Shown piece by piece: positions 3,454 through 57,083 of a stretch of 64,000 bases of DNA. The stretch is from Saprospiraceae bacterium (lineage in GTDB: Bacteria > Bacteroidota > Bacteroidia > Chitinophagales > Saprospiraceae): the NCBI GenBank assembly GCA_020627825.1, contig JAHDGD010000002.1:1-64000 (forward strand). Direction: 5' to 3'. A model generated the notes under the pieces. It was given only the letters and a program-made list of their open reading frames with translations, was not told where the DNA came from and ran no database searches. A program made the position numbers and the translations under genes. How positions within the stretch are numbered: the first letter of the stretch is position 1; each line of letters starts with the position of its first letter.

Positions 3454-4039
3454 CAACCCTATTGATATATGAACGTGTTTCAGGTCCCTTGCAAAAAAGT
3501 AGATCTAGAATACTGAGGTCGCTTTCAAACGCTAGCTTTTCACTAAAGACCTGAATATATTTTGGATAATCCAATGCCCTTGACTTGGGTAAGATTTTGT
3601 GTCTGAAATCCATAACGCATTCTTGTTTATATACTTCTGTTTCTAAAATGGGAATATGTAAAAGATTACCGAACCAATCTATGATATGAAAATTTAAATC
3701 ATACAAGCAGGTGTATTTAGATAAAAGTATCTGTTCAATTTCATCGAAATAATACTCAAAATAAGGAGCAGAACGGTAGGCACTTTCTATACTTGTTAAA
3801 TGCTTTTTAATCCAGTTATCTTCATAACTTATTATGACATCTGAGATTTTGGTTTGATTGTTTTTACCTTTTTTTAATGGAACACTTAAGGTTAAAGCAC
3901 CATTTGAAGAAAGAATTACACATTTATTTCTATAACTTCTTTTCTGATAATTTTCATTTTTTTCCAACTTTACACACCCATGTTTTTGGGCGAAAGCCCA
4001 AAATTGAATAGATGGAAAATATTGACTTTCTACAACCAT
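3440..4039 (-). CDS. WbqC-like family protein
   Basis: 199 aa, close to family length. WbqC-like proteins sit in surface polysaccharide gene clusters; the biochemical role is not settled. Family blocks visible here are the start VVESQYFPSIQFWAFAQKHG, the LTLSVPLKKGKN motif, the DNWIKKHLTSIESAYRSAPYF motif and the C-terminal FEHKHGF-like region replaced by FESDLSILDLLF. Codons for WAFAQK contain a copy of the dispersed palindrome (3984-4003). A TACATTTG -7 box lies only 4 bp upstream of the ATG, so the mRNA may be leaderless. Divergent from a GT2 glycosyltransferase, which fits a role in surface glycan synthesis (inference). Confidence 0.85.
   Translation of the reverse strand: MVVESQYFPSIQFWAFAQKHGCVKLEKNENYQKRSYRNKCVILSSNGALTLSVPLKKGKNNQTKISDVIISYEDNWIKKHLTSIESAYRSAPYFEYYFDEIEQILLSKYTCLYDLNFHIIDWFGNLLHIPILETEVYKQECVMDFRHKILPKSRALDYPKYIQVFSEKLAFESDLSILDLLFCKGPETRSYINRVVTNI
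3984..4003. repeat. Dispersed palindrome, perfect copy (TTTTGGGC-GAAA-GCCCAAAA)
   Basis: Perfect 8-bp arms around a 4-base loop. It lies inside the N-terminal coding region of the WbqC gene, where the sense strand reads the loop as TTTC and encodes WAFAQ. Same core as the copies at 8436, 20059, 28334, 45786, 52786 and 57066. Confidence 0.85.
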
Positions 4040-4043
4040 AGAA

Positions 4044-4051
4044 CAAATGTA
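4044..4051 (-). promoter_or_regulatory. TAnnTTTG (-7) box of the WbqC gene
   Basis: The minus strand reads TACATTTG, a perfect match to the Bacteroidota -7 consensus, ending 4 bp before the ATG at 4039. No convincing TTG (-33) was seen at the usual distance, so confidence is moderate. Confidence 0.5.
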
Positions 4052-4083
4052 TTCTTTTAAAAATTGCTTTAGTTAATTGAGGA

Positions 4084-5238
4084 ATGGAAAAAGCACATGA
4101 TCATATTCATATTTGTATCCCTTCTTATAAAGAAAAAGATATTAGTCTAACATTAGAATCATTGCAAGCTTGTGAATCTAATGGGCTAAATATACGCGTT
4201 ACCGTTCTAGTAAACGAATCAGTAAATGCTGATTTCGCTACACAAGAGCTAAATCAGAAAACATTAAAAGACCTTGAGGAATTTAGATTAAAATACCCTT
4301 TATTCCCCTTACAATATTATTTTCTTTCACTTCCAGTGAAGTCAGCAGGCGTTGGCCATGCAAGGAAACTTTTAATGGATCGAGCAGCACTACAGTTTCG
4401 CAAACTAGATAAAAATGGATTAATAGTTGCTCTTGATGCAGATACCATTGTATCTCCAAATTATTTATCATCAATTTCTAATTACTTTTCTAAAAATAAT
4501 AAAGAAGCAGCTTCCATTTTTTATGAACATCCATTAGATTCATGTCGAATTATTGAGTATGAATTTCATTTGAGGTATTACAATTCAATGCAATATCATG
4601 CAGGTTTTCCTTTTGCTATTCATACAGTAGGAAGTGCAATGGCATGCACTTCAGAATCTTATTTAAAGAAAGGAGGGATGAACAAACGTAAAGCTGGTGA
4701 AGACTTTTATTTTATGCAGAAATTCATAAAGGATCAAGTCTGCGGAAATATTACAGAAACAACTATAGTTCCATCATCACGTTCATCTGATCGAGTTCCT
4801 TTTGGAACTGGACGTGCCATACTAAAATATGAAGATCAATCCTATAAGGCAACCACTTATAATCCTACTTCATTTTCAATATTGAAGGCGTTTAATGAAA
4901 ATATAGCTAAACATTATCCTGACTATAAGGTAAAACTTACGCCTAATGAAAAATTAAATGAATTCCTACTTTCTATACATTTTAATGATAAATTTATAGA
5001 GTGTCTTCAGCATACAAAAGAAAAATCAGCTTTTTTAAAACGCTTCTATCAGTTCTTTGATGCCTTTACATTAATGAAATGTCTACATTATTTAAGAGAA
5101 GAATACCCTGATGTGGAAATCAAAGATGCAGCAACATATTATACTAACCAATTTTATAAATCACCTTTTCATTCTATTAAAGAAGTGCTGGTTAAGTTAC
5201 GTGAGGAAGAGCGCTATAGATTAGAACACCTAATGTAA
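4084..5238 (+). CDS. Family 2 (GT-A fold) glycosyltransferase
   Basis: 384 aa. The N-terminus IHICIPSYKEKDISLTLESL is a typical GT2 nucleotide-sugar binding start, and GLIVALDADTIVSPNYL carries the DxD-type metal-binding motif (around residues 118-122). GMNKRKAGEDFYFMQKF holds the ED acceptor-side motif. No membrane helix is evident, so the enzyme is probably cytoplasmic or peripheral. The C-terminal ~120 residues (after FGTGRAI) are not recognised. Divergent from WbqC and convergent with MiaE (9-bp overlap). A role in surface polysaccharide or glycolipid synthesis is likely; donor and acceptor cannot be told. Confidence 0.85.
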   Translation: MEKAHDHIHICIPSYKEKDISLTLESLQACESNGLNIRVTVLVNESVNADFATQELNQKTLKDLEEFRLKYPLFPLQYYFLSLPVKSAGVGHARKLLMDRAALQFRKLDKNGLIVALDADTIVSPNYLSSISNYFSKNNKEAASIFYEHPLDSCRIIEYEFHLRYYNSMQYHAGFPFAIHTVGSAMACTSESYLKKGGMNKRKAGEDFYFMQKFIKDQVCGNITETTIVPSSRSSDRVPFGTGRAILKYEDQSYKATTYNPTSFSILKAFNENIAKHYPDYKVKLTPNEKLNEFLLSIHFNDKFIECLQHTKEKSAFLKRFYQFFDAFTLMKCLHYLREEYPDVEIKDAATYYTNQFYKSPFHSIKEVLVKLREEERYRLEHLM

Positions 5239-5814
5239 GGCGGCACGAATGTCAAGACCTTCAATTATCTCGCTTTCTACATCTACCCAATATCTCAATC
5301 TATCATATACCTTTTCCTCATCGAAATAATTCAATGCCATTTTTACAAATATATGTCCATGTTTTGCTTCACTTGCCCATAATAATTTGTAAAATCTTTT
5401 CAATTCTGGATCAGTTAGCGCTTCACTAACTAACCTGAATCTTTCAGCTCCTCTTGTTTCAACTACTGATGCTATCAAAAGCCGATCTAAGAACCGTTCT
5501 AAGATTCCACTATGGCATTTTTTAACTAAAGCTTGAACATAAGGATCTCCACCTATAGAATGGTTTAATGAAATACCTCTGCTTTCCATAATCTCATATA
5601 CTTGCTGGAAATGTTCAAGCTCTTCTATACCTGTTGCAATTAATTCTGGAAGAATTTCTTTTCTATCTGGGTACTTAGCTACCAAACTCATTGCCATAGA
5701 AGATGCTTTTCGCTCACAATCGGCATGATCTTGTAAAAAGGAATCAAAATCAGCCATAACTGCATCAACCCATTCTTGTTTACTGGGAGTCTTTATGTCA
5801 AGATTTAACTTCAT
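5230..5814 (-). CDS. miaE: tRNA-(ms[2]io[6]A)-hydroxylase MiaE
   Basis: 194 aa, standard length. A ferritin-like diiron enzyme that hydroxylates the isopentenyl side chain of 2-methylthio-N6-isopentenyladenosine at position 37 of tRNA. Ligand motifs are visible in two helical halves: Glu of DCERKASSMA, the ELEHFQQV motif, then ETRGAERF and SEAKHGHIFVKM, giving the paired E and ExxH sets. The start MKLNLDIKTPSKQEWVDAVM is family-like. A minus-strand TAATTTTG (-7) box is seen about 40 bp upstream of the ATG. It overlaps the convergent glycosyltransferase by 9 bp. Confidence 0.93.
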   Translation of the reverse strand: MKLNLDIKTPSKQEWVDAVMADFDSFLQDHADCERKASSMAMSLVAKYPDRKEILPELIATGIEELEHFQQVYEIMESRGISLNHSIGGDPYVQALVKKCHSGILERFLDRLLIASVVETRGAERFRLVSEALTDPELKRFYKLLWASEAKHGHIFVKMALNYFDEEKVYDRLRYWVDVESEIIEGLDIRAALH

Positions 5815-5978
5815 GCTTATATTATTTCAGCTTTAAAAGGTATTAAATATCCAAAATTATAAAGTTTCATTTGTTTGACAATTTTATATGGAAAAGAAAC
5901 TACGATATCACGAATCGAAATTTATAAGCGTGCCAAACAAAAAGTTTGAAAATCTTTTTAATAGAATACAAAAAATTA

Positions 5979-5986
5979 TACATTTG
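5979..5986 (+). promoter_or_regulatory. TAnnTTTG box upstream of the 44-aa microprotein gene
   Basis: TACATTTG, 35 bp before the ATG at 6022. A transcript starting just after it would include the 44-aa gene but would lack the start of a longer ORF (5888-6118) in another frame. The -33 element is not at the standard spacing. Confidence 0.4.
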
Positions 5987-6021
5987 AAATACTTAATAAT
6001 TAATATTAAATCAATTTCAAA

Positions 6022-6156: not shown

Positions 6157-7463
6157 CGATTGTTCAGATGAAACTCGCTTATTCTAGGATCTACAAATAT
6201 GTCTCTAGGCGTTAATGGCTGCCGTAGTGCAACACCTTCTAGTGTTCGAATTCTACTTAAAGCAACATAAGCTTGTCCACTTTCAAAAGCCCCTTTTCCA
6301 AGGTCTATAATTGCTCGGTCAAATGTTTTTCCTTGACTTTTATGTATAGTTATTGCCCAGCTTAACTTTAGTGGGTATTGATTGAATGAACCGATAACAT
6401 CAGATTTTAACAAGGTAGTATTCATGGGGTCAGCTTTATATTTTATAATCTCCCATGTAAATCGCTCCACTTCTATGTTTTTGATCATACCTTGCTGATC
6501 TACGATTTGTACGGTTACTTTATCTATATCAAGCTCTTTTACAATACCCACTGTGCCATTAACAAAGTTTTTATCTGTGTCATTTTTTATAAACATAACT
6601 TGAGCACCAACCCTAAGTCTTAAATTTAATGCAGTAGGAAAAAGTCGCTCTGAAAAATCTCCTGTAACTCGAGCAAGATACTCGAATTCTTCTGTTTGGA
6701 CTTCTGATAATTTCTCTTTGTTTATCTTCTCTACTTGAGCATTGCGGGCACACATGGTAATGTAAAAGGAATCATCAAAAGTTTCATTGATGACTTGATT
6801 ATTCAATGCTTCTACGTCATCATAATCAATAGATTGCGTTCGAACATTATCTAATATTTGAATAAAACTCCTATCCGTTTGTCTGAAAACTTGCCTTAAC
6901 TCATGAATAATGAGCTCATAGTTTTCTTTGAAAACATGCGCTGAAAAGAAATAGGGTGTATTATAATGTGTTCTCAAGTATTCTCGCTCTTCTTGCGTTG
7001 CAATAACAGGAGGTAATTGAAATAGATCACCGAAACAAATTAGTTTTACGCCACCGAATGGCTCGTATAGATTTCCTCTATTAATTCTTAGAAAACGATC
7101 AATATTATCCATCATATCCGCTCTTACCATAGAAATTTCATCTATAACCAAGATGTCAATTTTAGCATACAACCTGAAGTTTCTTCTTCTAGTAATATCA
7201 CTAGGATGAAGCAGTTTAGGAGGGAAGCCAAAGAAGGAATGAATCGTTTGACCTTGGACATTCAATGCAGCAATACCTGTGGGAGCTAAAACAACTACAC
7301 GAGATCTGGTTGTTTTTCTAAATAATCTTAAAAGTGTAGATTTTCCTGTTCCTGCTCTTCCCGTTATATACAGTGGATCATTTGTTTCCTCCATGTCTTG
7401 AAGGATAAGCTTAAATTGGTTGCTTAGAACTAATGGTTGTTTACTTTTGGTGAGCTCTTTCAC
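6153..7463 (-). CDS. Pif1/RecD-like superfamily 1B DNA helicase
   Basis: 436 aa. Walker A is GRAGTGKSTLLRLF (about residues 38-51), followed by the APTGIAALNVQGQTIHSFF block, Walker B IDILVIDEISMVRADMMD, the motif FGDLFQLPPV, and near the C-terminus the motif AITIHKSQGKTFDRAIIDLG and GQAYVALSRI. This is the full set of Pif1-type 5'-3' helicase motifs. The family unwinds DNA, including G-quadruplex and R-loop structures. Length fits the short Bacteroidota Pif1-like proteins. The start codon overlaps the stop of the upstream nuclease gene by 4 bp, so the two are translationally coupled. Likely role: DNA repair or replication-fork maintenance. Confidence 0.92.
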   Translation of the reverse strand: MKELTKSKQPLVLSNQFKLILQDMEETNDPLYITGRAGTGKSTLLRLFRKTTRSRVVVLAPTGIAALNVQGQTIHSFFGFPPKLLHPSDITRRRNFRLYAKIDILVIDEISMVRADMMDNIDRFLRINRGNLYEPFGGVKLICFGDLFQLPPVIATQEEREYLRTHYNTPYFFSAHVFKENYELIIHELRQVFRQTDRSFIQILDNVRTQSIDYDDVEALNNQVINETFDDSFYITMCARNAQVEKINKEKLSEVQTEEFEYLARVTGDFSERLFPTALNLRLRVGAQVMFIKNDTDKNFVNGTVGIVKELDIDKVTVQIVDQQGMIKNIEVERFTWEIIKYKADPMNTTLLKSDVIGSFNQYPLKLSWAITIHKSQGKTFDRAIIDLGKGAFESGQAYVALSRIRTLEGVALRQPLTPRDIFVDPRISEFHLNNR

Positions 7464-8497
7464 TTTATTTCTTTCAAGAAATATCCGATCACAGGAAAAT
7501 GATCACTAAATCCATTTTTATATTCGCTACCTCCAAATGTCCTTAACGGATAATTTTTGTATTGTCCGGATTTTTGCAACATCTCTGGAGACTTGAATAT
7601 GATAGCTTTATGAAAAAATAAACCATCTTGATTTGTTAAAAGTAAGGATTGACTAACAATGATCTGGTCAAAAAGACTCCAGCTATCTCTGTAAGCGTTG
7701 GATCCTTCTCCTTTCTGATATTTCTTATACATCGGATTGAATAACCCATTAGTAGGAACCTTTTCAATTTTAGGTTTTGCATTGAGTGTTTTCTTTATAG
7801 ATGGAGATGTAGGGTCATCATTTAGATCACCCATAAGAATAACTTTGGCATTCGGGTTAACAGTGTATAAACTATCTATAATAGAAACATTTAATTCTGC
7901 TGCAGCTTGCCGTAAGGGAGCGGATCTTTTTTCTCCACCGCTACGTGAAGGCCAGTGATTTACTAAAATATACACCTCTTCATCTTTTAACATTCCGGAT
8001 ACAACTAAGACATCTCTTGTAAACTTTCTACGACCATCTTTCATGATGATGAGAGGGCGAGCTTCACTGTTAGTTACTGTAAAATAGGACGGATTATATA
8101 ATAATGCGACATCAATTCCTCTTTTATCTGGCGAATCATAATGTACAATTTTATAATTTCTTTCGGCAATTGATGGTTCTTTAACTAAATCTTCGAGTAC
8201 TCCTTTGTTCTCTATCTCCGAAACACCTAGTGCAACTACTCCATCTGCATTCATTTCTACTCCCATTTTAGAAATAACAGAAGACATTTTCGCTAATTTA
8301 GCTTGATAACGTTCTTCTGTCCAAGCTCTTTCACCTTCAGGGGTAAATTCTGTATCTCGAACATCTTCATCATCTTTTGTATCAAAGAGATTCTCAAGAT
8401 TGTAAAAACCAATAGGAAAAACCTCGTATTGTTTTTGGGCGAAAGCCCCAGAAAAATAAAATGCAAAAATAACAGTAAAAAGTAATCTTAAAAACAT
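7460..8497 (-). CDS. Secreted endonuclease/exonuclease/phosphatase family protein
   Basis: 345 aa. Residues 1-20 are a Sec signal peptide ending GAFAQ, so the protein is exported. The mature part has the EEP-fold motifs: FPIGFYNLENLFD at the start, the catalytic Glu in GVSEIENKG, HWPSRSGG, the metal-binding VILMGDLNDDP and the final GFSDHFPVIGYF (SDH motif). EEP enzymes cleave phosphodiester bonds in nucleic acids or related substrates. It is divergent from a TonB receptor/DUF5689 pair and coupled to a helicase gene downstream. With the receptor pair it suggests use of extracellular DNA or phosphate (inference). The signal-peptide codons GAFAQ contain a copy of the palindrome repeat. Confidence 0.88.
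   Translation of the reverse strand: MFLRLLFTVIFAFYFSGAFAQKQYEVFPIGFYNLENLFDTKDDEDVRDTEFTPEGERAWTEERYQAKLAKMSSVISKMGVEMNADGVVALGVSEIENKGVLEDLVKEPSIAERNYKIVHYDSPDKRGIDVALLYNPSYFTVTNSEARPLIIMKDGRRKFTRDVLVVSGMLKDEEVYILVNHWPSRSGGEKRSAPLRQAAAELNVSIIDSLYTVNPNAKVILMGDLNDDPTSPSIKKTLNAKPKIEKVPTNGLFNPMYKKYQKGEGSNAYRDSWSLFDQIIVSQSLLLTNQDGLFFHKAIIFKSPEMLQKSGQYKNYPLRTFGGSEYKNGFSDHFPVIGYFLKEIK
8436..8450. repeat. Dispersed palindrome, imperfect copy
   Basis: TGGGC-GAAA-GCCCCA; arms GGGC/GCCC with one mismatch further out. Lies in the signal-peptide codons (GAFAQ) of the EEP nuclease gene; the sense strand loop is TTTC. Confidence 0.6.
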
Positions 8498-8597
8498 GTA
8501 GCTGATTTAATATAGCACAAAGTAATAGTGTTTATTATAAAAATGTATATTTATAATTAATAGTTTCTTAATTATTTATTAATGTTCCAAAAATCGT

Positions 8598-8625: not shown

Positions 8626-8641
8626 TGGCAAAAATAAACTT

Positions 8642-18508: not shown

Positions 18509-19810
18509 ATGAATATTGCAGCATTTATTGCCAAAAGAATTACCTTTCCTAAAAAAAGAAGTTTTACGAAACTGATTATAAACATAGGCGTAACAGCGGT
18601 TGCTCTTTCAGTTACTGTTATGATTGTTTCCACTAGTTTATTCAATGGGTTTAAAAATGAAATTTCTCAGAAAGTTTTTAACTTTTGGGGACATATACAT
18701 ATAAGTGACGCGAATACTAAAAGGACTTTCGAACCGATTCCTATTATACACGATTCAGAATTGATTGATCGGATTGCACGTCTTGAAGCTCAAGAATTCA
18801 AAATCCCCAAAACATCTTATTTCAAGGGATCTTCCAATGTCTATAAAACAGAACAAACTAGAGGTGGAGTAAAATCAATAAGCCCGTTTATTGTACTTCC
18901 CTGTATCATCAATACGAAAGATGAATTCGAGGGCATTTATTTAAGAGGACTAAATAACGATTATGCTTATGATCGTATCGATGAATTTTTGAATGAAGGA
19001 AGGTGGATGAATTGCACCGACACTTCTTATCATGAAGAGATTGTTGTTTCTGATCATATTGCTAAAAAACTTCAGCTTCAATTGGAAAATAACATCATTA
19101 TAAATTTTATTTTCGAAGGCAAACAAAAAAAGAAGAGAGTAAAGATTGTTGGAATTTACAAAACGGGAATTGAAGAATATGATAAGCAATTCGCCTTTGT
19201 TGATATTCGTTTAACACAAGAGCTAATCGGATGGAGCAAAAATCAATATGCAGGCTATGAAGTTATTTTAGATAACAAGGAAGACATGGCTATTATGAAT
19301 GAATATATTTATGTAGAGCAATTGCCTTCGAGATTGTATAGTGAAACAATCAGAGAAAAGTTTGATAATATTTTCGGCTGGCTCAATCTACAGGATGTCA
19401 ATGAAAAAGTGATTTTTTTATTGATGATTATTGTAGCCATTATCACAATGATCACAACTTATCTAATCTTAATTCTAGAAAGAACAAGAACTATTGGAAT
19501 CCTTAAGAGTTTAGGTGCGACGAATAATACAGTAGTGAAAGTCTTTTTGTATTGTGCGTTTTATATTATTTCAAGAGGAATGCTAATTGGGAATATATTG
19601 GGTTTTGGACTTTGTTTAATTCAGAAATTTACTCATATAATTAAACTTGACGAAACCAATTATCTTGTAGATTCTGCCCCTATATTATTTAATTTCCAAA
19701 CCATCTTACTTATTAATTTAGGCGTGTTACTATTAACATTAGTTTTCTTATTAGTTCCTTCTATTCTCATTTCCCATATAAAACCAGTCAAGATTTTACG
19801 ATTCAAATGA
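18509..19810 (+). CDS. ABC transporter permease, FtsX/LolC-type
   Basis: 433 aa from the ATG at 18509; a TTG four codons earlier (18497) is the alternative, but MNIAAFIAKRITFPKKRSFT is the usual start of this family. Membrane helices are at about 25-47, 303-330 (VIFLLMIIVAIITMITTYLIL), 350-375 and 395-425, with a large periplasmic domain of ~250 residues between the first two. The ERTRTIGILKSLGATN motif is the FtsX-family coupling signature. FtsX/LolC-type permeases move lipoproteins or transmit ATPase motion to periplasmic partners. No ATPase gene is adjacent. The next gene overlaps by 4 bp (ATGA). Confidence 0.85.
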   Translation: MNIAAFIAKRITFPKKRSFTKLIINIGVTAVALSVTVMIVSTSLFNGFKNEISQKVFNFWGHIHISDANTKRTFEPIPIIHDSELIDRIARLEAQEFKIPKTSYFKGSSNVYKTEQTRGGVKSISPFIVLPCIINTKDEFEGIYLRGLNNDYAYDRIDEFLNEGRWMNCTDTSYHEEIVVSDHIAKKLQLQLENNIIINFIFEGKQKKKRVKIVGIYKTGIEEYDKQFAFVDIRLTQELIGWSKNQYAGYEVILDNKEDMAIMNEYIYVEQLPSRLYSETIREKFDNIFGWLNLQDVNEKVIFLLMIIVAIITMITTYLILILERTRTIGILKSLGATNNTVVKVFLYCAFYIISRGMLIGNILGFGLCLIQKFTHIIKLDETNYLVDSAPILFNFQTILLINLGVLLLTLVFLLVPSILISHIKPVKILRFK

Positions 19811-20505
19811 TAAAAATGAATCCTTTAGAGAAGTTGAAGTACAGCAGAGACATCTTATTATTTGGATTGAAATCTCTTCCTATTCGTGTCAAAAGATTGA
19901 TAACGCATTTGGTGTTTATAAATGAAAAAATAGGCTTGGGATTTAAAAGAAGAACCTATATCATTGAATGGCTTTTATCTTCAATTTTATTATTACTGGA
20001 TATTGTATTGATTCCAGAACTATTATCGATAGTATTTATTTGGGTCAATAAAGTAAGGGGGCTTTCGCCCAAAGAAAAAGAAATTAAAACCATATTGTTC
20101 AACAAATCCTTGGAAATCCCCATAATTCTTAATGATAACGCTCGTATTACTACGAATAAAGGAAAATATGCATTTGTTGGCTATTACATTGTGAATAGTT
20201 GTGGTATGAGCGAACGAACTTTTGCTCATGAATTGGTTCATTTTTATCAGTTTTCAAAATTTGGGAGTGCTTATATTATCCGATCATTATTAGCTCAGCG
20301 ATCAATAAATGGATACAATTATGGTGGAGTTGAAAACTTGAAGCAAATGATGGAACTTAATGCTCCTGCTAAGCATTTAAATTACGAACAGCAAGGTGAA
20401 GTTTTAGCTGATTATTATACATTGATTAAATCAGTAACACGGCTTAATTGTACCGCGTATGAAAATAATGTCTCCTATTATAGGTATATACTAGATCAAT
20501 GGTAA
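19807..20505 (+). CDS. Membrane-associated HExxH metalloprotease-like protein
   Basis: 232 aa, start codon overlapping the FtsX stop (ATGA), so coupled to it. An internal ATG at 19816 is possible. A hydrophobic segment at about 57-77 (IIEWLLSSILLLLDIVLIPELL) would anchor it. The motif FAHELVHFYQF (about residue 140) is HExxH, and EQQGEVLADYY about 57 residues later could supply a third Glu ligand, as in gluzincin-type zinc peptidases. I cannot assign a named family. The codons for RGLSPKE carry a copy of the dispersed palindrome. Possible role: processing of, or quality control for, the partner permease's cargo (inference). Confidence 0.55.
   Translation: MIKMNPLEKLKYSRDILLFGLKSLPIRVKRLITHLVFINEKIGLGFKRRTYIIEWLLSSILLLLDIVLIPELLSIVFIWVNKVRGLSPKEKEIKTILFNKSLEIPIILNDNARITTNKGKYAFVGYYIVNSCGMSERTFAHELVHFYQFSKFGSAYIIRSLLAQRSINGYNYGGVENLKQMMELNAPAKHLNYEQQGEVLADYYTLIKSVTRLNCTAYENNVSYYRYILDQW
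20059..20070. repeat. Dispersed palindrome, core-only copy
   Basis: GGGC-TTTC-GCCC followed by AAAG. Sense codons read GLSPK, the same peptide as produced when the intergenic copies are translated. Confidence 0.55.
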
Positions 20506-20572: not shown

Positions 20573-21106
20573 ATGTTAGATTTAGAAAAGTTGAAATATC
20601 CTATAGGTCATGTTCATACACCTTCTTCGATGAATGACATAGACATTACTCAAGCAACAACAGTTATTCAAAAATTACCGGATGAGCTAATGGATATAAC
20701 TTTGGGGTTAAACCCCAAAGACCTTGAACATACATATAGACCTGGAGGATGGAATATAAAACAAGTCATCCATCACCTTGCAGATTCCCATATGCATGCA
20801 TTTAGTCGATTTAAATATGTTGTTACAGAAGGAGATCAAGTAGAAGTAAAAGCATATAAAGAAGCATTATGGGCTGGAACGCCAGAAATTGATGATTCCA
20901 TTGATGATTCTTTGTTGATTTTACGAGGCGTGCATAATAGATGGAGTAAGTTGATTCATTCCTTGGATCCTCAAATCTTAAATAAAGGATATTATCATTC
21001 CGAAATGAAAAGAAATGTTCCTTTGTTTGAAGCTGTTGCACAATATGAATGGCATTGCAAACATCATCTTGCTCACATACACTTAGCACTAAAAAACATG
21101 GAATAA
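20573..21106 (+). CDS. YfiT-type DinB-superfamily protein (putative metal-dependent hydrolase / bacillithiol transferase)
   Basis: 177 aa from the ATG at 20573. The ORF is open back to a GTG at 20513, but the family starts with a short leader before LKYPIGHVHTP, and a promoter sits at 20529-20555, so 20573 is preferred. The four-helix DinB fold is indicated by RPGGWNIKQVIHHLADSHM, where the HLADSH motif gives the first metal-binding His, and by QYEWHCKHHLAHI, which gives the other two. YfiT-like proteins are thiol-dependent transferases or hydrolases; the thiol used here is not known. The codons for LGLNPKD form a perfect 21-bp palindrome (20700-20720). Confidence 0.8.
   Translation: MLDLEKLKYPIGHVHTPSSMNDIDITQATTVIQKLPDELMDITLGLNPKDLEHTYRPGGWNIKQVIHHLADSHMHAFSRFKYVVTEGDQVEVKAYKEALWAGTPEIDDSIDDSLLILRGVHNRWSKLIHSLDPQILNKGYYHSEMKRNVPLFEAVAQYEWHCKHHLAHIHLALKNME
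20700..20720. repeat. Perfect 21-bp palindrome in the YfiT-like gene
   Basis: 10-bp arms CTTTGGGGTT / AACCCCAAAG with one central base. Related in shape (TTTGGGG...CCCCAAA) to the dispersed family; the sense peptide is GLNPK. Confidence 0.55.
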
Positions 21107-38548: not shown

Positions 38549-39427
38549 ATGAAAGCATACGTTTTTCCTGGTCAAGGTGCTCAATTCGTTGGAATGGGCA
38601 AAGATATGTACGATTCTAGTACAATTGCTAAAGAGTTATTTGAAGAAGCTAACGCAATTCTAGGTTTTGACATAACCGAAATTATGTTTAATGGTACAGC
38701 AGATGAATTGAAAAAGACGTCAGTTACACAACCAGCTGTCTTTTTACATAGCGTTATAAAATCAAAAATCAGTGACTCTTTTCAACCTGATGTCGTTGCG
38801 GGGCATTCACTTGGTGAGTTTTCAGCTTTGGTTGCTGCTGGGGCTATGACCTTTCAAGACGGTCTATCTCTTGTTCAAAAGAGAGCGCTTGCGATGCAAG
38901 AAGCATGTAATGAATCCGAAAGCACAATGGCGGCAATTCTTGGTTTGGATAACGAAGTTGTTGAACAGGCTTGCGCCCAAATAGAAGAAACAGTGATTCC
39001 TGCTAATTATAATTGTCCTGGACAGCTTGTAATAAGTGGTTCCGTAAAAGGTATAGAGCAAGCGGTTACTTTACTTACTGAATTAGGTGCAAGAAGGGCA
39101 ATAATTTTGCCCGTTAATGGTGCATTCCATTCTCCTTTTATGGCTTCTGCTAAAAATTCCTTAAGTGAAGCCATTAATGAAGCAAATTTTACAACTCCTA
39201 GGTGTCCCATATATCAGAATGTTGACGCTACAGCTTATTCAAACCCAAAAAGTATAAAAGAGAATCTGATTGAACAATTAATTGCTCCAGTAAAATGGAC
39301 ACAAATTATGGAAAATATGATTTCTGATGGAGTAACTGAGTTTGTTGAGGTAGGTGGAAACGGTAAGACTCTTTCTTCTTTTGTAAAGAAAATTGATCGA
39401 TCTTTTCCTACGTCTCCTTTACAATAA
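38549..39427 (+). CDS. fabD: Malonyl-CoA:ACP transacylase
   Basis: 292 aa. Moves malonyl from CoA to acyl carrier protein for fatty-acid elongation. The oxyanion-side PGQGAQFVGMGKDMYD motif and the nucleophile motif AGHSLGEFSALVAAG (Ser ~92) are intact; the catalytic His lies in VNGAFHSPFMASA, and Arg/Gln motifs are in QKRALAMQEAC. The C-terminus VEVGGNGKTLSSFVKK is typical. Length normal. Other FAS genes are absent nearby, apart from accC 13 kb away. Confidence 0.95.
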   Translation: MKAYVFPGQGAQFVGMGKDMYDSSTIAKELFEEANAILGFDITEIMFNGTADELKKTSVTQPAVFLHSVIKSKISDSFQPDVVAGHSLGEFSALVAAGAMTFQDGLSLVQKRALAMQEACNESESTMAAILGLDNEVVEQACAQIEETVIPANYNCPGQLVISGSVKGIEQAVTLLTELGARRAIILPVNGAFHSPFMASAKNSLSEAINEANFTTPRCPIYQNVDATAYSNPKSIKENLIEQLIAPVKWTQIMENMISDGVTEFVEVGGNGKTLSSFVKKIDRSFPTSPLQ

Positions 39428-39490: not shown

Positions 39491-40045
39491 ATGGAAGAAA
39501 ATTCTGTTGGCCAAATATTGATTTCAGAACCTTTTATGGAAGACCCCAATTTCAAGCAATCGGTCGTCCTCATATGTGATTATGAACCTGATCATGGCAC
39601 AGTAGGCTTTATTTTAAATAAGCCTCTTGATGTGAAAGTAGGTGATTTGCTCCAAGACTTTCCTGAATTTGATGAAGACATCTATATGGGAGGTCCAGTA
39701 GGCCATGATACCATACACTATGTTCACAGTCGTGGTGATGTTATTGATGATGCTGTTTTTATAAGAGATGGATTATGGTGGGGAGGTAATTTTGAAAAAT
39801 TGAAATTTTTGATTGAAAATAAAGTAATTACTGGCTCTGATATTAAATTTTTTGTAGGGTATTCTGGTTGGTCACTTGGACAGTTGGATAATGAACTGGA
39901 AATGGGTTCTTGGGTTGTTGATACAATGGACAATAATTATTTAATTAATATTCCTTCAGATAAATTGTGGAAATCATCTATGGCAAATATTTCTGACCAT
40001 CTGGCTATCATTGCAGATATTCCTGATCATCTTAATCTGAATTGA
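39491..40045 (+). CDS. YqgE/AlgH family protein
   Basis: 184 aa. Recognised from GQILISEPFMEDPNFKQSVVLIC at the N-terminus, HGTVGFILNKPLD, the GGPVGHDTIHYVH block and FFVGYSGWSLGQLDNELEMGSW, all conserved in the family. The biochemical function is unsettled (AlgH was first linked to alginate regulation). Predicted cytoplasmic. The ABC-F gene begins on its stop codon (TGATG), so the two are translationally coupled. Confidence 0.9.
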   Translation: MEENSVGQILISEPFMEDPNFKQSVVLICDYEPDHGTVGFILNKPLDVKVGDLLQDFPEFDEDIYMGGPVGHDTIHYVHSRGDVIDDAVFIRDGLWWGGNFEKLKFLIENKVITGSDIKFFVGYSGWSLGQLDNELEMGSWVVDTMDNNYLINIPSDKLWKSSMANISDHLAIIADIPDHLNLN

Positions 40046-41958
40046 TGATTCAGCTAAGCAATATTTTCATAAAATACGGAGATAGAGTTCTTTATAACAA
40101 TATCAGCTTAAGAGTTGAGAAAGGAGAGAAAATTGGACTTGTAGGAAGAAACGGTACAGGGAAATCTACCTTACTTAAAATAATAGCAGGTACTCAACGC
40201 CCTGATAATGGTCTTGTTGAATTAAACAAAGGTATTGGCTTAGCTTTTTTAACTCAGGATTTACCCGATTATGCATCTATTACCTTGTATGAACTTGCGA
40301 AATCGGCATTCGATAAATTAAATGCAATAGAGGACGAAATAAATGCAATAAATGAACGATTGGAGAAGGGTGAAATAGGAGATGGAGAGGAAGATTTAAA
40401 AGTATTTGATCGTTTAGCAGAATTGAATACCTCTTTTGAGATGTTAGGTGGAAATAACCTAGAAGCTTCAATACAATCTGTATTAACTGGTCTTGGCTTC
40501 CGCCAAAAGGAATTTCATAATGCAATGCATACGTTTTCTGGAGGGTGGATTATGCGGGCTGAGTTAGCAAGATTATTATTGAGTAGTCCAGATATTTTGT
40601 TACTCGATGAGCCAACAAATCACTTGGATATAGAATCTATTCTTTGGCTTGAGAATTATTTAGCTAAATCACATATGACAATTATCGTGATTTCACACGA
40701 TAAAACGTTTTTATCAAATGTAACTGGAAAAACAGCAGAAATAGAATTCAGTAAACTTGAGGTCTACAAAGCGCCTTATAATAAGTATTTAAAAATTAAA
40801 GAAGAACGTAGAGAAATTCAATTATCGGCGTATAAAAATCAACAAAAACAGATTGCAGAAAAAGAAAGAACGATAACTAGATTCATGGCAAAAGCTACAA
40901 AAACAAAAATGGCACAATCCATGAAAAAGCAATTGGACAAACTGGAAAGAATAGAAGCAGTTGACGAAGAAGCTGCGACGATGAAGATCCATTTTCCGCA
41001 CAGCCAGCGTTCAGGAAGGATCGTTTTAAAAGGCGATCATATAAGCAAATCTTATGGGGAAAAAAATGTTTTAGATGATATATCTATTGAGATAGAAAAA
41101 GGAGAGAAAGTTGCGTTTGTTGGTCAAAACGGACAAGGAAAGACGACGCTTGTCAAGATATTAATTGAGAAAATTAAAGCGGAAAAAGGTCAAGTTCAAC
41201 TTGGTCATAATGTTGATGTAAGTTATTATGCACAGAATCAAGCAGATAATCTAGATAATTCAAAAACACTTCTGGAAACCATGGAAGCTGTTTCACCGCC
41301 AGATATGAGAACTAGATTACGTACTATTTTAGGTAGTTTTCTATTTAGTGGGGAGGATGTAGATAAAAAAGTTTCTGTACTTTCAGGTGGAGAACGAGCT
41401 AGATTAGCTATGGCCATGATGATCCTTTATCCAGGTAATCTATTGGTATTGGATGAACCGACAAATCATTTAGACATCCAATCAAAAGAGATATTAAAGA
41501 ATGCAGTGCAGTCTTATGAAGGAACTGTATTAATTGTATCTCACGACCGTGATTTCCTAGCTGATTTATGTCATATTGTCTACGAATTTAGAGATAAAAA
41601 GATTAAAAAGTACTTAGGAGATATCAATTATTTTTTAGATAAACGGGCTGCAGATGATATGCGTGAAATTGAGATGGCAACGAAACAAAATTCTTCAAAA
41701 ACAATTACAAATTCTAAGCCATCTGTAAATCGAGAACTCCTAAAAAAGAAAAGAAGGGAAATGCAATATGTGGAACGCGATATTGCTAAGTTGGAAGATG
41801 AAAAAGAGCAATTCGAAGAGAAAATGACGGACCCTGCTTTCTTTACCAACTCAACAAGTCAAGAAGATTTAGCAAAATATAATTCGTTAAAACAGGAGTT
41901 AGAATCTAAAATGGAAGAGTGGGAGGTTTTAGCTGAATGGCTTGACACCTATGATTAA
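40045..41958 (+). CDS. ABC-F family ATPase (ribosome-associated, Uup/Ettf-like)
   Basis: 637 aa from the ATG at 40045 (a TTG just before, at 40042, is the only alternative). Two ABC domains: Walker A GRNGTGKSTLL (~residue 36) and GQNGQGKTTLV (~residue 370); signature motifs TFSGGWIMRAELARLLL and VLSGGERARLAMAMM; Walker B LLLDEPTNHLDIES and LVLDEPTNHLDIQS. A charged linker of ~80 residues (KYLKIKEERREIQLSAYKNQ) separates them, and a C-terminal coiled coil (~560-637, KKRREMQYVERDIAKLEDEK) is like Uup. No membrane domain: ABC-F proteins act on ribosomes. Overlaps the convergent RluA gene by 4 bp. Confidence 0.94.
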   Translation: MIQLSNIFIKYGDRVLYNNISLRVEKGEKIGLVGRNGTGKSTLLKIIAGTQRPDNGLVELNKGIGLAFLTQDLPDYASITLYELAKSAFDKLNAIEDEINAINERLEKGEIGDGEEDLKVFDRLAELNTSFEMLGGNNLEASIQSVLTGLGFRQKEFHNAMHTFSGGWIMRAELARLLLSSPDILLLDEPTNHLDIESILWLENYLAKSHMTIIVISHDKTFLSNVTGKTAEIEFSKLEVYKAPYNKYLKIKEERREIQLSAYKNQQKQIAEKERTITRFMAKATKTKMAQSMKKQLDKLERIEAVDEEAATMKIHFPHSQRSGRIVLKGDHISKSYGEKNVLDDISIEIEKGEKVAFVGQNGQGKTTLVKILIEKIKAEKGQVQLGHNVDVSYYAQNQADNLDNSKTLLETMEAVSPPDMRTRLRTILGSFLFSGEDVDKKVSVLSGGERARLAMAMMILYPGNLLVLDEPTNHLDIQSKEILKNAVQSYEGTVLIVSHDRDFLADLCHIVYEFRDKKIKKYLGDINYFLDKRAADDMREIEMATKQNSSKTITNSKPSVNRELLKKKRREMQYVERDIAKLEDEKEQFEEKMTDPAFFTNSTSQEDLAKYNSLKQELESKMEEWEVLAEWLDTYD

Positions 41959-45785: not shown

Positions 45786-45805
45786 TTTTGGGCTCGAGCC
45801 CAAAA
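45786..45805. repeat. Dispersed palindrome, perfect 20-bp copy
   Basis: TTTTGGGCTCGAGCCCAAAA: full self-complementarity. Sits between the ferredoxin stop and the MBL gene's ATG on the minus strand. Confidence 0.9.
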
Positions 45806-48911: not shown

Positions 48912-51425
48912 TTATTGTTTTTGAAAAATTTGTGCTGTAGTCTTTCCGTTAATAATAGTCTGAAGAATATAGCTGCCAGTAGTGTAATGGTCTATATTTA
49001 GTTGGGAAGTTCCATTAGTTTCAGGAATTTCTTGAATGAGTTGTCCATCCATTGATAAAATCTGTGCATTGCTTGTTCCCTGCGCCCATTCAATTGTCAG
49101 TAAAGATGAAACAGGGTTAGGAAATAACTTTGTTTGCTGGATCGTATGTAATTCTTCTTCTTCATTGGAAACAAAGAAATCAATTTGGAAATCGTAAATA
49201 CCTCTTCCGTACGTTCCAAATCTCACAGTTTGATCGTTGTTAACTAATTCTACACTCCAATATGTAACGTCTGGAGCTGATTCTCCTAGCATACTGTACC
49301 ATTTATTCTGAGATAATATACAAACAAAAGGGCCACTTGTTGTAGCCGCAAAAAGCAATGACTCTTCATCATTCATCGCCATTCCAAGAATTACCGTTGA
49401 AGGTAGTCCATCTGAATAATTTTCAAATGTTACTCCACCATCAATTGATTTCATACATGGAACACCATTAAAGCCATTTCCTCCTGTGTAAACAATTTCT
49501 TTATTCGTTTTTGAGGCAACTATAGCTTGGCCATACAAATAATGACCTCCTGGAACATCATCGGATTTTGTAAATGTCTCACCAAAATCATTACTAGTGA
49601 AGAAAACACCATTATCTGTAGCTGCATAAATCGTTTGTTCAAATTCATCAGCAACTGTAATCGCTGATACCACACCTCCTGATGCTGCTCTGAAGTCAAA
49701 ATCTAATTGTGAAGCATTAATTTGATTGTCCACTGCTTCTAATCTAACTATGTAAGAACCCGAACCTCCATTTATATTTCCACCTGCAGCATAAATATGA
49801 TCTGAAAATTCATGTGGCGGTGCAGCAAGTGGTGGAATCCACACACTCTCATTGGTTGACTCTATTGTATAACTAGCTGTGATTCCTTGATCATTTGGCT
49901 GAGGCCAAAAACTGATCCAGCCACCAGGATAAACTGTCCACAATTTCCCGTTTGTAGTGAACTGAATATGACCGTAATCTCCAGATATTGGTTGTGCTAA
50001 AATAAGGGCTTCATCTTCAATATCCGCTCCTCTTTGAAAACCTTGATCTTGAGAACCAGCATAAATATATTCTTCTGATCCTGGACTTGTTCTTACACTA
50101 TAATATTGAGATACATTAAGCCCTATTAATGAAAAATTAGTAGGTTGCTGATCATAGGTAAACATTTTGCTAATTCCGCCATGATTACTAATCAACATAA
50201 AATACTCATCAGTATCTTGATCGACATAATCGCTAAACCACATCATATCAGCATGCAATTTATTCACTACATCACCATAATATTCAGCCCAACCATTAAT
50301 CATTTCCCAATTTTGTCCTCCATCAAAAGATCGATAACATTCTATATCACCATACATCAGGAAATCTGGATTTTGACTGCTTACAAAAATTCCCACTCCC
50401 CATGGATTTGACGGTAATGTTCCTTGGTCAGTCCATGTTACCCCTTCATCAATTGATCTAAAAACAGACACCCCATTTTGATTGGTTAACGCATATAGAT
50501 ATGGGGTTCCATCCTCATCAACTGATGCAACAAATCTTGCAGATCTGCCTTGTAAATCCAAAGGAGAGAAACTTTGAATAAGATCGACTGCTGTTTTATC
50601 ACTATTCATTTTATAAACTCTACATATTGTTCCTAAAGATTCCAGAATATACATTTCATCTGTTTTTCTGATATGAGCTAGCGAAATCAAATTCATATCA
50701 TTTGTAATAAAGGAATGAATTTTAGTGTATGTAGCTCCTAAATCATTAGATACATAAAGGTTTGAATTGGTGTCTCCAGGTTCATTGGCTATTACAAAAA
50801 TTCGTTGTGTACCATCTACTGCCATAACTTCATCTTTGAAGCTAACAAAAAATGGAATATTGGAAGGAATCCATGTTTGTCCATCATCATCGCTATAATG
50901 TGGTATGCGATTAATATTTGCCGCTATTCTTCTATTGCCATCTATATAACCTACTTCCAAAAAACGGACATTAAATCGAGCTCTTTCATTCACTACCTCC
51001 CATGTAAATCCATCTAAGCCTCCTTTCCATATGTGCCCACCTGCACTAACAAGAAATAGTTCATCTGTTGTATCATCATAAGCCGTTTTAAATACACTTC
51101 CTGCTTGATTGATACTACCTTTTTCTATCCATTCGCCGGTGATCAATCCATCAGCAATAGATTCTATTGGTGTTCTTGTAGAAATATTTGTGTTTCGTTT
51201 TTTAAATCGATCATAGGCATTTTCACGCATAATCTCTTCCGCCGTTTTATCCCCTTCTGTTCTGAATAATTTTTCTTTCCATGCTTTCTTAGAAGCAGAA
51301 AAAACCGGATTTTCCATGTCTTCTTTTACGATGGTGTTTTCATCGGTGGGAGCAGGCATTAATGTCGATTGTTCTTTGCAAGAAACTAAAGTAAGAACGA
51401 ATATAAAAGGTAGTAAATATTTCAT
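48912..51425 (-). CDS. Sortilin/BNR-like repeat protein with lipobox and T9SS type A C-terminal domain
   Basis: 837 aa. MKYLLPFIFVLTLVSC gives a lipoprotein signal (LVSC, Cys16). The body (~90-750) is a beta-propeller of sortilin/Asp-box repeats, seen as repeated ...DDGQTWIPSNIP, ..SIDEGVTWTDQG, ..SFDGGQNWEMIN and ..SNDFGETFTKSD. The C-terminal ~80 residues (TKLFPNPVSSLLTIEW ... YILQTIINGKTTAQIFQKQ) form a type A (Por) T9SS sorting domain. Cargo of T9SS with a type II signal peptide is unusual but known in a few cases. Probably a surface binding or sugar-hydrolase-like protein; Asp boxes alone do not show enzyme activity. Confidence 0.88.
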   Translation of the reverse strand: MKYLLPFIFVLTLVSCKEQSTLMPAPTDENTIVKEDMENPVFSASKKAWKEKLFRTEGDKTAEEIMRENAYDRFKKRNTNISTRTPIESIADGLITGEWIEKGSINQAGSVFKTAYDDTTDELFLVSAGGHIWKGGLDGFTWEVVNERARFNVRFLEVGYIDGNRRIAANINRIPHYSDDDGQTWIPSNIPFFVSFKDEVMAVDGTQRIFVIANEPGDTNSNLYVSNDLGATYTKIHSFITNDMNLISLAHIRKTDEMYILESLGTICRVYKMNSDKTAVDLIQSFSPLDLQGRSARFVASVDEDGTPYLYALTNQNGVSVFRSIDEGVTWTDQGTLPSNPWGVGIFVSSQNPDFLMYGDIECYRSFDGGQNWEMINGWAEYYGDVVNKLHADMMWFSDYVDQDTDEYFMLISNHGGISKMFTYDQQPTNFSLIGLNVSQYYSVRTSPGSEEYIYAGSQDQGFQRGADIEDEALILAQPISGDYGHIQFTTNGKLWTVYPGGWISFWPQPNDQGITASYTIESTNESVWIPPLAAPPHEFSDHIYAAGGNINGGSGSYIVRLEAVDNQINASQLDFDFRAASGGVVSAITVADEFEQTIYAATDNGVFFTSNDFGETFTKSDDVPGGHYLYGQAIVASKTNKEIVYTGGNGFNGVPCMKSIDGGVTFENYSDGLPSTVILGMAMNDEESLLFAATTSGPFVCILSQNKWYSMLGESAPDVTYWSVELVNNDQTVRFGTYGRGIYDFQIDFFVSNEEEELHTIQQTKLFPNPVSSLLTIEWAQGTSNAQILSMDGQLIQEIPETNGTSQLNIDHYTTGSYILQTIINGKTTAQIFQKQ

Positions 51426-51461: not shown

Positions 51462-52781
51462 TTAATTTTTATAGTGATCCTTCAAGTTTTTGGGATTTGG
51501 TTCACCAAGTTGACCTGTTGACTTGGCGACGACCATCGAAACTGTTGCATCTCCTGTTACGTTAACCATAGTTCGACACATATCGAGTGGACGATCTACA
51601 GCCAATATCATAACAATTCCCTTTTCAAGTAATTCAGATGGAAAATTTATGGATTCTAACACGATAATCAACATAATAACTCCAGCTCCTGGAACAGCTG
51701 CTGAGCCTATAGATGCTAAAAGTGCGGTTAAAAGAATTGTTAAGATCATGCCCATTGTTAACTCCACATTCAATGCCTGGCATATGAAAACTGCTGCAAC
51801 AGCTTGATATAAGGACGTTCCATCCATATTAATTGTTGCACCCACAGGAAGTACAAAACTACTGACCTCTTCATCTACTCCTAGGTGTTCTTCCACTCGT
51901 TCCATAGTTACGGGTAATGTTGCTGCGCTTGAACTGGTACTAAATGCTACAAGTTGCGCAGGAGAGATACCTTTTAAAAAATCCATTGGTGATCTTCCTG
52001 TATAAAAGAACACGACAATTAAATAGAAAACAATCATTAATGCCAATCCTACTACTACTGTCAATCCATAAACTATTAAACTGAAAATTAGATCAGGTCT
52101 ACTGGTCTCTGCTACTAATTTAGCCATTAAGGCAAATACACCTACAGGTGCGATAAGCATAATAAGATCTACCATTTTCATGATGATGTCATTCAATGCA
52201 TCAAATATATTCTTCAAGGGTTTTGCTTTCTCCTTGTCAATTAGTATCATACATATTCCAAGTAAAATCACAAAAAATATAACTTGGAGCATCAAACCAT
52301 TCTCGGACATGGAATGAAATATATTTTCAGGTACAATATCTACTAATGGTTGAAGAGGGCCAGCCTCACCTTGAGCTTTTGCATTTTGTATCTTTCCTTC
52401 AGCAGTCTCACTATTTTCAGCAACCAATTCAGATAATGTTTCTTCACTAATATAACTACCAGGATTTACTATATTTACTAGAGCAAGCCCTATTGATATT
52501 GCAACTATTGTTGTTAATACATACAAAATAATAGTACGTATCCCCATTCTAGAAAACTTACTGATATCTTCTAAGTCACTAATTCCTTTTACTAATGACG
52601 CAATAATTAATGGAATTGCAATCATTTTTAAAAGACCTATAAAAATAGTTCCAAATGGCCCTATCCAATCTTTTACAAATTGAACATATCCCATATTGGT
52701 TAAGGTATAACCCACAAGAAACCCCAGAACCATTCCTATTAAAATCTTCCAATGTAAAGCTATTTTTTTCATTTTTTTCAT
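51462..52781 (-). CDS. Dicarboxylate/amino acid:cation symporter (DAACS family)
   Basis: 439 aa from the ATG at 52781 (another ATG at 52772 is equally possible; a frame from a TTG at 52805 lies in a palindrome and is rejected). About eight membrane helices plus two re-entrant hairpins, e.g. WKILIGMVLGFLVGY and ILYVLTTIVAISIGLALV. Hallmark motifs: STSSSAATLPVTMERVEEHLG (Ser-rich HP1) and GATINMDGTSLYQAVAAVF, and the conserved Asp/Arg region DRPLDMCRTMVNVTGDAT. Resembles GltP/DctA-type glutamate or C4-dicarboxylate carriers; the substrate is not certain. The palindrome at 52786-52809 lies in its leader. Confidence 0.92.
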   Translation of the reverse strand: MKKMKKIALHWKILIGMVLGFLVGYTLTNMGYVQFVKDWIGPFGTIFIGLLKMIAIPLIIASLVKGISDLEDISKFSRMGIRTIILYVLTTIVAISIGLALVNIVNPGSYISEETLSELVAENSETAEGKIQNAKAQGEAGPLQPLVDIVPENIFHSMSENGLMLQVIFFVILLGICMILIDKEKAKPLKNIFDALNDIIMKMVDLIMLIAPVGVFALMAKLVAETSRPDLIFSLIVYGLTVVVGLALMIVFYLIVVFFYTGRSPMDFLKGISPAQLVAFSTSSSAATLPVTMERVEEHLGVDEEVSSFVLPVGATINMDGTSLYQAVAAVFICQALNVELTMGMILTILLTALLASIGSAAVPGAGVIMLIIVLESINFPSELLEKGIVMILAVDRPLDMCRTMVNVTGDATVSMVVAKSTGQLGEPNPKNLKDHYKN

Positions 52782-52785
52782 TTTA

Positions 52786-52809
52786 TTTTTTGGGCTCAAG
52801 CCCAAAAAA
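52786..52809. repeat. Dispersed palindrome, longest copy
   Basis: Six T, GGGC, TCAA, GCCC, six A: arms of 10-11 bp. Lies between accC and the dctA-like gene; in either direction the stem is followed by a T-run, so it could also act as a two-way terminator. Confidence 0.85.
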
Positions 52810-52838
52810 GATCAAAGGTATAATCGATCACCTACCAT

Positions 52839-55211: not shown

Positions 55212-55311
55212 ATTGATGTATTCGTTTCAAAACCGAAAATTAATGAAATATTTACACAGAAATTGCAGTAAAATGAATGAATCGTATTAATTTTCTACCA
55301 AAATATAAAAT

Positions 55312-56340: not shown

Positions 56341-56345
56341 TATAA

Positions 56346-56954
56346 ATGAGATATGTATTTTTCCTGTCAATTATCATGATATTACTTGTATCATGTGATT
56401 GCGGTATTGATGAAAGTGAATTACTTCTTACTTCATCCGAATTAAGTTTTTTTGATTCTTACATTGAAGGAGATACAATTATTTACTTAGGCGATATGGG
56501 ATCTTCAGACACCCTTATAGTAGACACTGTCACTCCGACGGTTGAGGAATTCGATATTAATTGTGGTTTTTTGAGTAGTGAACCAAGAAATGAGAAAAGT
56601 ATTTTTATACGACATCTTCCTAGAAACATTTATCCATTTACTCCATTAGAAACTTCGGAATCTGCCACTATAAAAAGCCCTCAGTGGTTATTTAGCTTCC
56701 AAGTGGTTGCAAATCCTCGCGATGTGAATATGGTTATTAATTTTAAAAACTTTTCATTTGCTAGCAATCAATTTGAAGACTACAGAACGGTAAAGGATAC
56801 TGTTTTTACTGACATTGAAGTGGATGAATTTTATAAATTACCTCATACAGAGAATGGACTTGATGAAATAGTAGAATGTGTTTACTGGATTCCAACAGAA
56901 GGTATGTTAGCCTATACTGCAACAACTGGAGAACATTTTAGTAGAATAGATTGA
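56346..56954 (+). CDS. Uncharacterised lipoprotein
   Basis: 202 aa, 5 bp after the LEA-like gene. MRYVFFLSIIMILLVSCDCGI is a lipoprotein signal with lipobox LVSC (Cys17). The mature part is beta-rich (FDINCGFLSSEPRNEKSIFI, LFSFQVVANPRDVNMVINFK) and resembles no family that I know. Probably an envelope protein. Same operon as the LEA-like gene; followed by a hairpin (56974-56995). Confidence 0.65.
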   Translation: MRYVFFLSIIMILLVSCDCGIDESELLLTSSELSFFDSYIEGDTIIYLGDMGSSDTLIVDTVTPTVEEFDINCGFLSSEPRNEKSIFIRHLPRNIYPFTPLETSESATIKSPQWLFSFQVVANPRDVNMVINFKNFSFASNQFEDYRTVKDTVFTDIEVDEFYKLPHTENGLDEIVECVYWIPTEGMLAYTATTGEHFSRID

Positions 56955-56973
56955 ATTTACACCACGTTGTATT

Positions 56974-56995
56974 GATCATGTTTTTGGACATGATC
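56974..56995 (+). terminator. Hairpin after the lipoprotein gene (possible terminator)
   Basis: 8-bp stem GATCATGT / ACATGATC with loop TTTTGG, but the T-run (CTTTTTC) follows only after 10 bp, so termination is uncertain. Confidence 0.35.
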
Positions 56996-57061
56996 TGTTA
57001 CTACTTTTTCATTTTTGTAAAACTTTTATGCATACAGAACATTAGAAGTATAGCAAGTATT

Positions 57062-57069
57062 TAGATTTG
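57062..57069 (+). promoter_or_regulatory. TAnnTTTG box of the mrp operon
   Basis: TAGATTTG overlaps the left arm of the palindrome at 57066-57083. Transcription would begin within the palindrome, so the TTG at 57067 cannot be the start codon. Confidence 0.45.
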
Positions 57070-57083
57070 GGCTCGAGCCCAAA
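57066..57083. repeat. Dispersed palindrome, perfect 18-bp copy
   Basis: TTTGGGCTCGAGCCCAAA in the mrp leader, 10 bp before the ATG at 57094. Confidence 0.9.

Follow-up and report, generated by a model that had tools for sequence, protein, structure and literature searches.

The palindromes discussed here were recognized in a stretch of 64,000 nucleotides (the window) that forms positions 1 to 64,000 of contig JAHDGD010000002.1 from a Saprospiraceae bacterium (phylum Bacteroidota; assembly GCA_020627825.1). Their closest described counterparts are the highly iterated palindrome HIP1 of Cyanobacteria, the DNA uptake sequences (DUS) of Neisseriaceae and uptake signal sequences (USS) of Pasteurellaceae, the repetitive extragenic palindromes (REPs) and REPINs, and the quasipalindromes that act as hotspots of template switching. 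HIP1 has symmetric extensions that are specific to a species (PMC4390886), and uptake sequences are reported to drop sharply in number from perfect to single-mismatch copies (PMC1939737). DUS and USS have a fixed, non-palindromic sequence in the duplex, for which pilin receptors are known or have been proposed; REPs are inserted, mostly intergenic, and depend on REP-associated tyrosine transposases (RAYTs). HIP1 has a single fixed sequence, centred on GATC and linked to methyltransferases, and has gone unexplained since the 1990s, partly because that sequence hardly varies.

A preliminary description of the window, made from its letters alone, had listed copies of TTTGGGC-N4-GCCCAAA in gene leaders and signal-peptide codons, and had offered as readings a HIP1-like genome-wide motif, a recombination or restriction-related site, or a mobile mini-element tolerating in-frame insertion. 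We find that the copies belong to a motif that is enriched throughout the genome, whose stem arms covary, whose sites arose in place, and which is confined, in several dialects, to one family. With a probability of roughly 0.4, we regard them as copies of a signal spread through the genome and specified by its secondary structure, which might serve as an uptake-type watermark of self DNA.

A hairpin motif iterated through the genome

The window's own assembly (G000) comprises 4.46 Mb in 297 contigs, of which ~635 kb were read base by base; in other genomes, which like the whole sample are mostly drafts, ~65-500 kb each were read in this way. Expectations were taken from Markov models of order 3 or 5, and gene calls for part of the gene-context, orthologue and orientation counts came from a simple hexamer method of our own. 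As with HIP1, a short inverted repeat is over-represented genome-wide: GGGCN4GCCC occurs 369 times in G000 against 2 for the reversed control, and the corresponding counts are 196 against 0 for TTGGGCN4GCCCAA, 162 against 0 for the N5-spaced GGGCN5GCCC and 225 against 0 for GGCTTWCGCCCAAA. Spacers of 4 (150) and 5 (44) nucleotides stand out from all other lengths (0-5), and the most over-represented 10- and 12-mers in the ~635 kb are nearly all forms of this motif. Within the window the same pattern GGGCN4GCCC (GGGCNNNNGCCC) is matched 7 times where 0.05 matches are expected, and TTTGGGCN4GCCCAAA with up to 3 mismatches is matched 15 times (1.68 expected; none of 100 shuffles equalled 15). The claim of a density far above chance is upheld in window and genome alike, the objection of a chance-level frequency falls away, and the HIP1-like motif has fared best among the three readings first offered.

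Each site consists of a stem, a loop of 4-5 nucleotides, the matching stem and an A-rich 3' flank. In the genus of G000 the stem is GGC/GCC and the loop either TTNC or a self-complementary TCGA, TTAA or TTTAA. Sites of class N read GGC-TTNC-GCC-(C/A)AAA(A/G), where N is T, A, C or G; those of class T read TTTTGGGC-loop-GCCCAAAA, with loops TCGA, TTAA, TTTAA and similar, each palindrome being a site on both strands. The TCGA and TTAA copies are extended perfect palindromes, the former with symmetric A/T flanks. Around the sites of G000, no conserved sequence was found beyond ~20 bp.

Class N is indifferent to gene boundaries (50 of 63 sites lie in genes in part of the G000 sequence read) and falls in several frames and on both strands, encoding AFAQ, AYAQ, GLSPK, LGESP, LLAEA or FWAKA, whereas class T favours intergenic DNA (15 of 20 TCGA sites), with no preference for the 5' ends of genes. 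These tendencies explain the leader and signal-peptide pattern reported earlier. The link to signal peptides is incidental, GAFAQ being only one of the peptides that this DNA can encode; the placement of intergenic copies just 5' of genes is correct for the three window copies but does not hold more widely, the 15 intergenic GGCTCGAGCC sites in the part of the genome read lying between tandem, divergent and convergent genes alike; and TTTC does stand in the sense strand in the four window copies, but both orientations occur in genes. The absence of a preference for gene starts also led us to reject a leader or promoter element, and an intrinsic terminator (an intergenic GC hairpin with a T run) was rejected on the A-rich 3' flank and the location of most class N sites within genes.

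Stem covariation and origin in place

Evidence that the sites are hairpins comes from relatives in which the stem varies. In G188, a member of another genus, sites with the flank nAAA have the stems GGC/GCC (78), CGC/GCG (29), GCC/GGC (22) and CCC/GGG (3) and no unpaired G/C combinations; that is, 132 are paired and 0 unpaired, where 56 paired of 132 would be expected if the arms were independent. Sites of G032 with the flank GAA have GGC/GCC (43), GCC/GGC (32) or CCC/GGG (2), giving 77 paired and 2 unpaired (38 paired expected under independence), and G031 favours the GCC stem. The fourth pair is coupled as well, being G-C in 42 and T-A in 32 of 130 sites, against an arithmetic estimate of ~40 for independent arms. 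The closing pair beside the loop is C-G, its reverse being rare. Five genomes have the loop T[T/G]NC (complement GN[A/C]A), a rule that G031 follows less strictly. These rules for stem, loop and flank are independent of how regions were chosen for reading, except that GGC stems were used for choosing. Mirror-repeat controls are low, DNA folding prediction yields the expected stem-loops, and single mismatches in the stem are very rare (2 copies against 46 perfect ones in G188; 0 against 39 in the TCGA class of G000, both strands counted).

Since the stem arms covary across copies and species, what is conserved is a hairpin and not one sequence. Mixed arms, as expected if a protein bound the duplex symmetrically through a degenerate half-site, are missing. 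It is probably the folded shape that cells recognize, and the strand that folds would be DNA rather than RNA, because both gene orientations are common (67 sites in the same and 58 in the opposite orientation in G188).

Sites occur in G188 at ~1 per 2.7 kb, a density that is perhaps somewhat high because the regions read there and in G001 were partly chosen for holding matches. Their spacing is Poisson-like (coefficient of variation 0.99), their strands are balanced (76 + and 65 - over contiguous segments), and 134 of 156 lie in genes. Orthologues align through the sites without an excess of indels, which indicates that the sites arose in place by substitution and not by insertion: of 39 orthologue pairs, 2 (5.1%) had gaps at the site, the share in random windows being 4.2%, and a looser set gave 10 of 58, all of these numbers being small. 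Comparison of presence and absence at orthologous sites, as the preliminary description had advised, therefore gave no insertion signature; nor are the copies kept by protein sequence alone, for protein identity is 39% inside sites and 53% in their flanks. Residues at the sites being less conserved, the DNA motif overrides the protein. In a single case, the WbqC site at 3984-4003, the orthologue in G001 carries over the same codons a hairpin with an identical GGGC/GCCC stem, whose loop reads GGCA for TTTC (opposite orientation); inversion of the spacer is among the known outcomes of template switching (PMC8604942).

Dialects among related genera

The motif is restricted to one family of Bacteroidota, within which it is patchy by genus (0 to ~690 copies) and has different stems and flanks in each; a phylum-wide survey gave only weak signals outside the family. 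Sites of the GGCTCGAGCC type are nearly limited to one genus, GGGCTCGAGCCC occurring 129 times in G000 and never more than once in any of 198 further genomes from the order, and TTGGGCN4GCCCAA is found 196, 58, 2 and 10 times in the genus members G000-G003. Class N is broader, with 225, 144, 126 and 66 copies of GGCTTWCGCCCAAA in G000-G003, 167 in G188 and near zero in the other families of the order. With generalised stems (SSCTTTCGSSNAAA), many genera of the family prove rich in the motif (690 copies in G032, 661 in G188, 612 in G707 and 501 in G684, with low controls); many others have 0-5 copies, and counts differ within one genus (61 in G249, 612 in G707). Related genera swap stems under the same loop, unlike a fixed recognition sequence, and the suggestion of a restriction-related site is not borne out.

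Loss of SbcCD, which might let hairpins accumulate, was rejected as an explanation: SbcD (TIGR00619) is missing in the motif-rich G000, G188 and G724 and present in G003, G032 and G684, which are rich in the motif as well, so that there is no correlation.

Other repeats were seen as well. G625, from another family of the class and perhaps Flavobacterium-like, has a few GGCTTTCGCCAAAA copies, but the inverted repeat chiefly iterated in it is another palindrome, CCGAAGCTTCGG (often CCCGAAGCTTCGGG), with 16 copies of CCGAAGCTTCGG counted on both strands of 220 kb and 0.05 expected. GCAATTGC is three-fold over-represented in G003 (60 against 20, counted on both strands of 500 kb) and is possibly another iterated palindrome. 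At C71:16031-16399 of G639, from another family, GGCTTTCGCCAAAA recurs at ~175-180 bp steps, probably as a tandem repeat rather than a dispersed motif. The Y1 transposase PF01797 has no match in five motif-rich genomes, and the other seven family members tested carry one to eight each.

Possible roles of the hairpin

The signal would be a short DNA hairpin with a GC stem of 3-4 bp closed by C-G, a loop T[T/G]NC or, as a further option in the genus of G000, a self-complementary TNNA or TNNNA, and an A-rich 3' flank. It would arise by in-place substitution in any frame and on either strand, a biased process keeping its density high, and it may be read while the DNA is single-stranded, because stem pairing matters and gene orientation does not. 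By analogy with DUS and USS, the hairpin might be a watermark of self DNA, most likely tied to natural transformation, in which DNA enters the cytoplasm as one strand: fragments bearing it would be better taken up, protected or recombined, copies would accumulate, and each lineage would drift to its own dialect. With DUS and USS it shares strong over-representation in and between genes, an origin in place by point change, dialects among relatives and few single-mismatch copies; it differs in being a hairpin with a proposed uptake role, and in having no fixed duplex core within one genome, three stem sequences coexisting in G188. The density, Poisson-like spacing and balanced strands fit an uptake-type watermark better than an oriented signal of the Chi type, and the rarity of one-mismatch copies resembles the drop seen in uptake sequences and so fits drive. 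All 32 genomes tested have ComEC and 31 of them DprA, which makes DNA uptake possible.

Several points weigh against the watermark. Relatives poor in the motif have ComEC and DprA just as often, and these genes, being near-universal among the genomes tested, were rejected as the cause of the patchiness. Known uptake signals are, to our knowledge, recognized by their sequence in duplex DNA rather than in hairpin form. That intermediates are almost lacking could also mean concerted, templated correction, which would give the same result as drive. Should this tentative reading hold, the hairpin would be the first genome-wide iterated DNA signal set by structure and not by sequence, with a dedicated hairpin-reading protein, and drive or selection would maintain it across genera of a single family; no earlier description of this motif or of a structure-defined genome-wide signal was found in the open literature, most subscription papers lying outside that coverage. 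Among the related genera, stem, loop and flank vary naturally while one rule holds, which shows that base pairing counts and supplies ready-made test molecules. A watermark for uptake or recombination would extend self-recognition of that kind to Bacteroidota and to hairpins, and would mark DNA-exchanging lineages in uncultured communities.

It is also conceivable, if somewhat unlikely, that the hairpin is an intracellular signal like HIP1 or Chi, recognized by a protein that acts on single-stranded DNA at forks or recombination intermediates (in priming, restart, end processing or strand exchange) and kept dense by selection. The motif is genome-wide, neutral as to location and dense in G188, and HIP1 is likewise a short, self-complementary, iterated inverted repeat with symmetric extended forms that differ by species (GGCGATCGCC, TGCGATCGCA; PMC4390886). 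However, the strands show no bias, unlike Chi-type signals, and absence from most sister genera would be odd for a core function. Whereas HIP1 (GCGATCGC) is associated with GATC/CGATCG methyltransferase sites, here no GATC centre is found among the loops listed and the stems vary while pairing and loop are kept, so that the methyltransferase explanation cannot be transferred. The hosts differ too, this one belonging to Bacteroidota, with a window gene that ends in the type IX secretion sorting domain PF18962.

Less likely still is a functionless mutational footprint, in which template switching during replication at short inverted repeats would perfect stems and invert loops, loop and flank marking the preferred substrate. 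In coding DNA, such switching makes the arms of a repeat alike and turns its spacer around (PMC8604942), and it can both generate hairpins and preserve them (PMC8794818). The near lack of imperfect stems, the WbqC site with its one stem and oppositely oriented loops, and the extended perfect palindromes of the TCGA and TTAA sites all agree with it. Quasipalindrome hotspots resemble our sites in having repeats made perfect and loops inverted at constant length, yet they are neither sequence-specific nor iterated across a genome. Template switching by itself should make every inverted repeat perfect, whereas our sites have a specific loop and flank and mirror-repeat controls are low. The sites also override amino acids that are conserved elsewhere, and the restriction to some genera would be left without a reason.

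That the hairpin acts in transcripts on the fate of mRNA, through a GNRA-like or UUUC loop, is very doubtful. Stem pairing is conserved, and on the complementary strand C-G pairs close GNAA loops, an arrangement stable in RNA, but with both orientations common in genes only about half of the sites would put either loop into mRNA, and the complementary-strand loops GACA, GGCA and GTCA violate the GNRA rule. A known RNA family was rejected, no Rfam match having been found in the window.

We consider it still more improbable that the sites are duplex palindromes for a transcription factor or nucleoid protein, or for methylation or restriction. The TCGA copies, perfect, symmetrically flanked and mostly intergenic, would suit such a role; degenerate half-sites, however, would mix, and at sites with the flank GGC is hardly ever combined with GCG or GGC, spacings of 4 and 5 coexist, and hundreds of sites in genes have an asymmetric loop.

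A transposase-inserted mini-element (of REP/REPIN type or like a miniature inverted-repeat transposable element) is already contradicted and can be given hardly any weight, for although the covarying hairpin, conserved flanking tract, many dispersed copies and patchy distribution recall REPs, gaps are not in excess at orthologous sites, most sites lie in genes (134 of 156 in G188), nothing is conserved beyond ~20 bp, PF01797 has 0 matches in G000-G003 and G188 and is present in motif-poor relatives, and no virus contig has more than one copy, so that a REP/RAYT element and a viral carrier were both rejected.

Sites in the window

The four perfect copies first described (3984-4003, 45786-45805, 52786-52809 and 57066-57083) are all present. 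Among the degenerate copies proposed, those at 8436, 20059 and 28334 fit the motif, those at 20700 (GGGG/CCCC) and 17552 (GGG/CCC) are marginal, and the one at 8686 (GGGTCGGGGCCC) breaks the stem-loop rule. The sites and marginal variants are as follows, those at 38968 and 40495 being absent from the preliminary description.

3984-4003, minus strand: hairpin site, loop TTTC on the minus strand, A4 flank on both strands; in a WbqC-like gene (3440-4039, minus), codons FWAFAQK
8434-8448, minus strand: hairpin site, loop TTTC on the minus strand; signal-peptide end (GAFAQK) of an Exo_endo_phos_3 gene (7460-8497, minus)
20059-20073, plus strand: hairpin site GGGCTTTCGCCCAAA; codons RGLSPKE of a gene without Pfam match (19807-20505, plus)
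28337-28351, plus strand: hairpin site GGGCTTTCGCCCAAA; signal-peptide end (GAFAQ) of a gene at 28291-30708 (plus)
38968-38981, plus strand: hairpin site GGC-TTGC-GCC-CAAA; within an acyl transferase (FabD-like) gene (38549-39427, plus)
40495-40508, plus strand: hairpin site GGC-TTCC-GCC-AAAA; within an ABC-F-type gene (40042-41958, plus)
45786-45805, both strands: perfect 20-bp palindrome TTTTGGGCTCGAGCCCAAAA, a site on each strand; upstream of a metallo-beta-lactamase-fold gene (start ~45734, minus)
52786-52809, no strand assigned: palindrome TTTTTTGGGCTCAAGCCCAAAAAA, two central bases unpaired; upstream of a sodium:dicarboxylate symporter gene (51462-52781, minus)
57066-57083, no strand assigned: palindrome TTTGGGCTCGAGCCCAAA; upstream of an Mrp/NUBPL-type P-loop gene (start ~57094, plus)
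20701-20719, no strand assigned: marginal variant TTTGGGGTTAAACCCCAAA, stem GGGG/CCCC
49894-49910, no strand assigned: marginal variant TTTGGC-TGAG-GCCAAAA
63405-63422, no strand assigned: marginal variant TTTGGC-TTTTT-GCCCAAG

Each of the three leader palindromes holds an in-frame TTG (45791-45803, 52793-52805 and 57067-57079) upstream of the likely ATG (M-G-S/L-S-P-K...), so that a mechanical gene caller extends the proteins through the palindrome, and the annotation of starts at these genes may be wrong.

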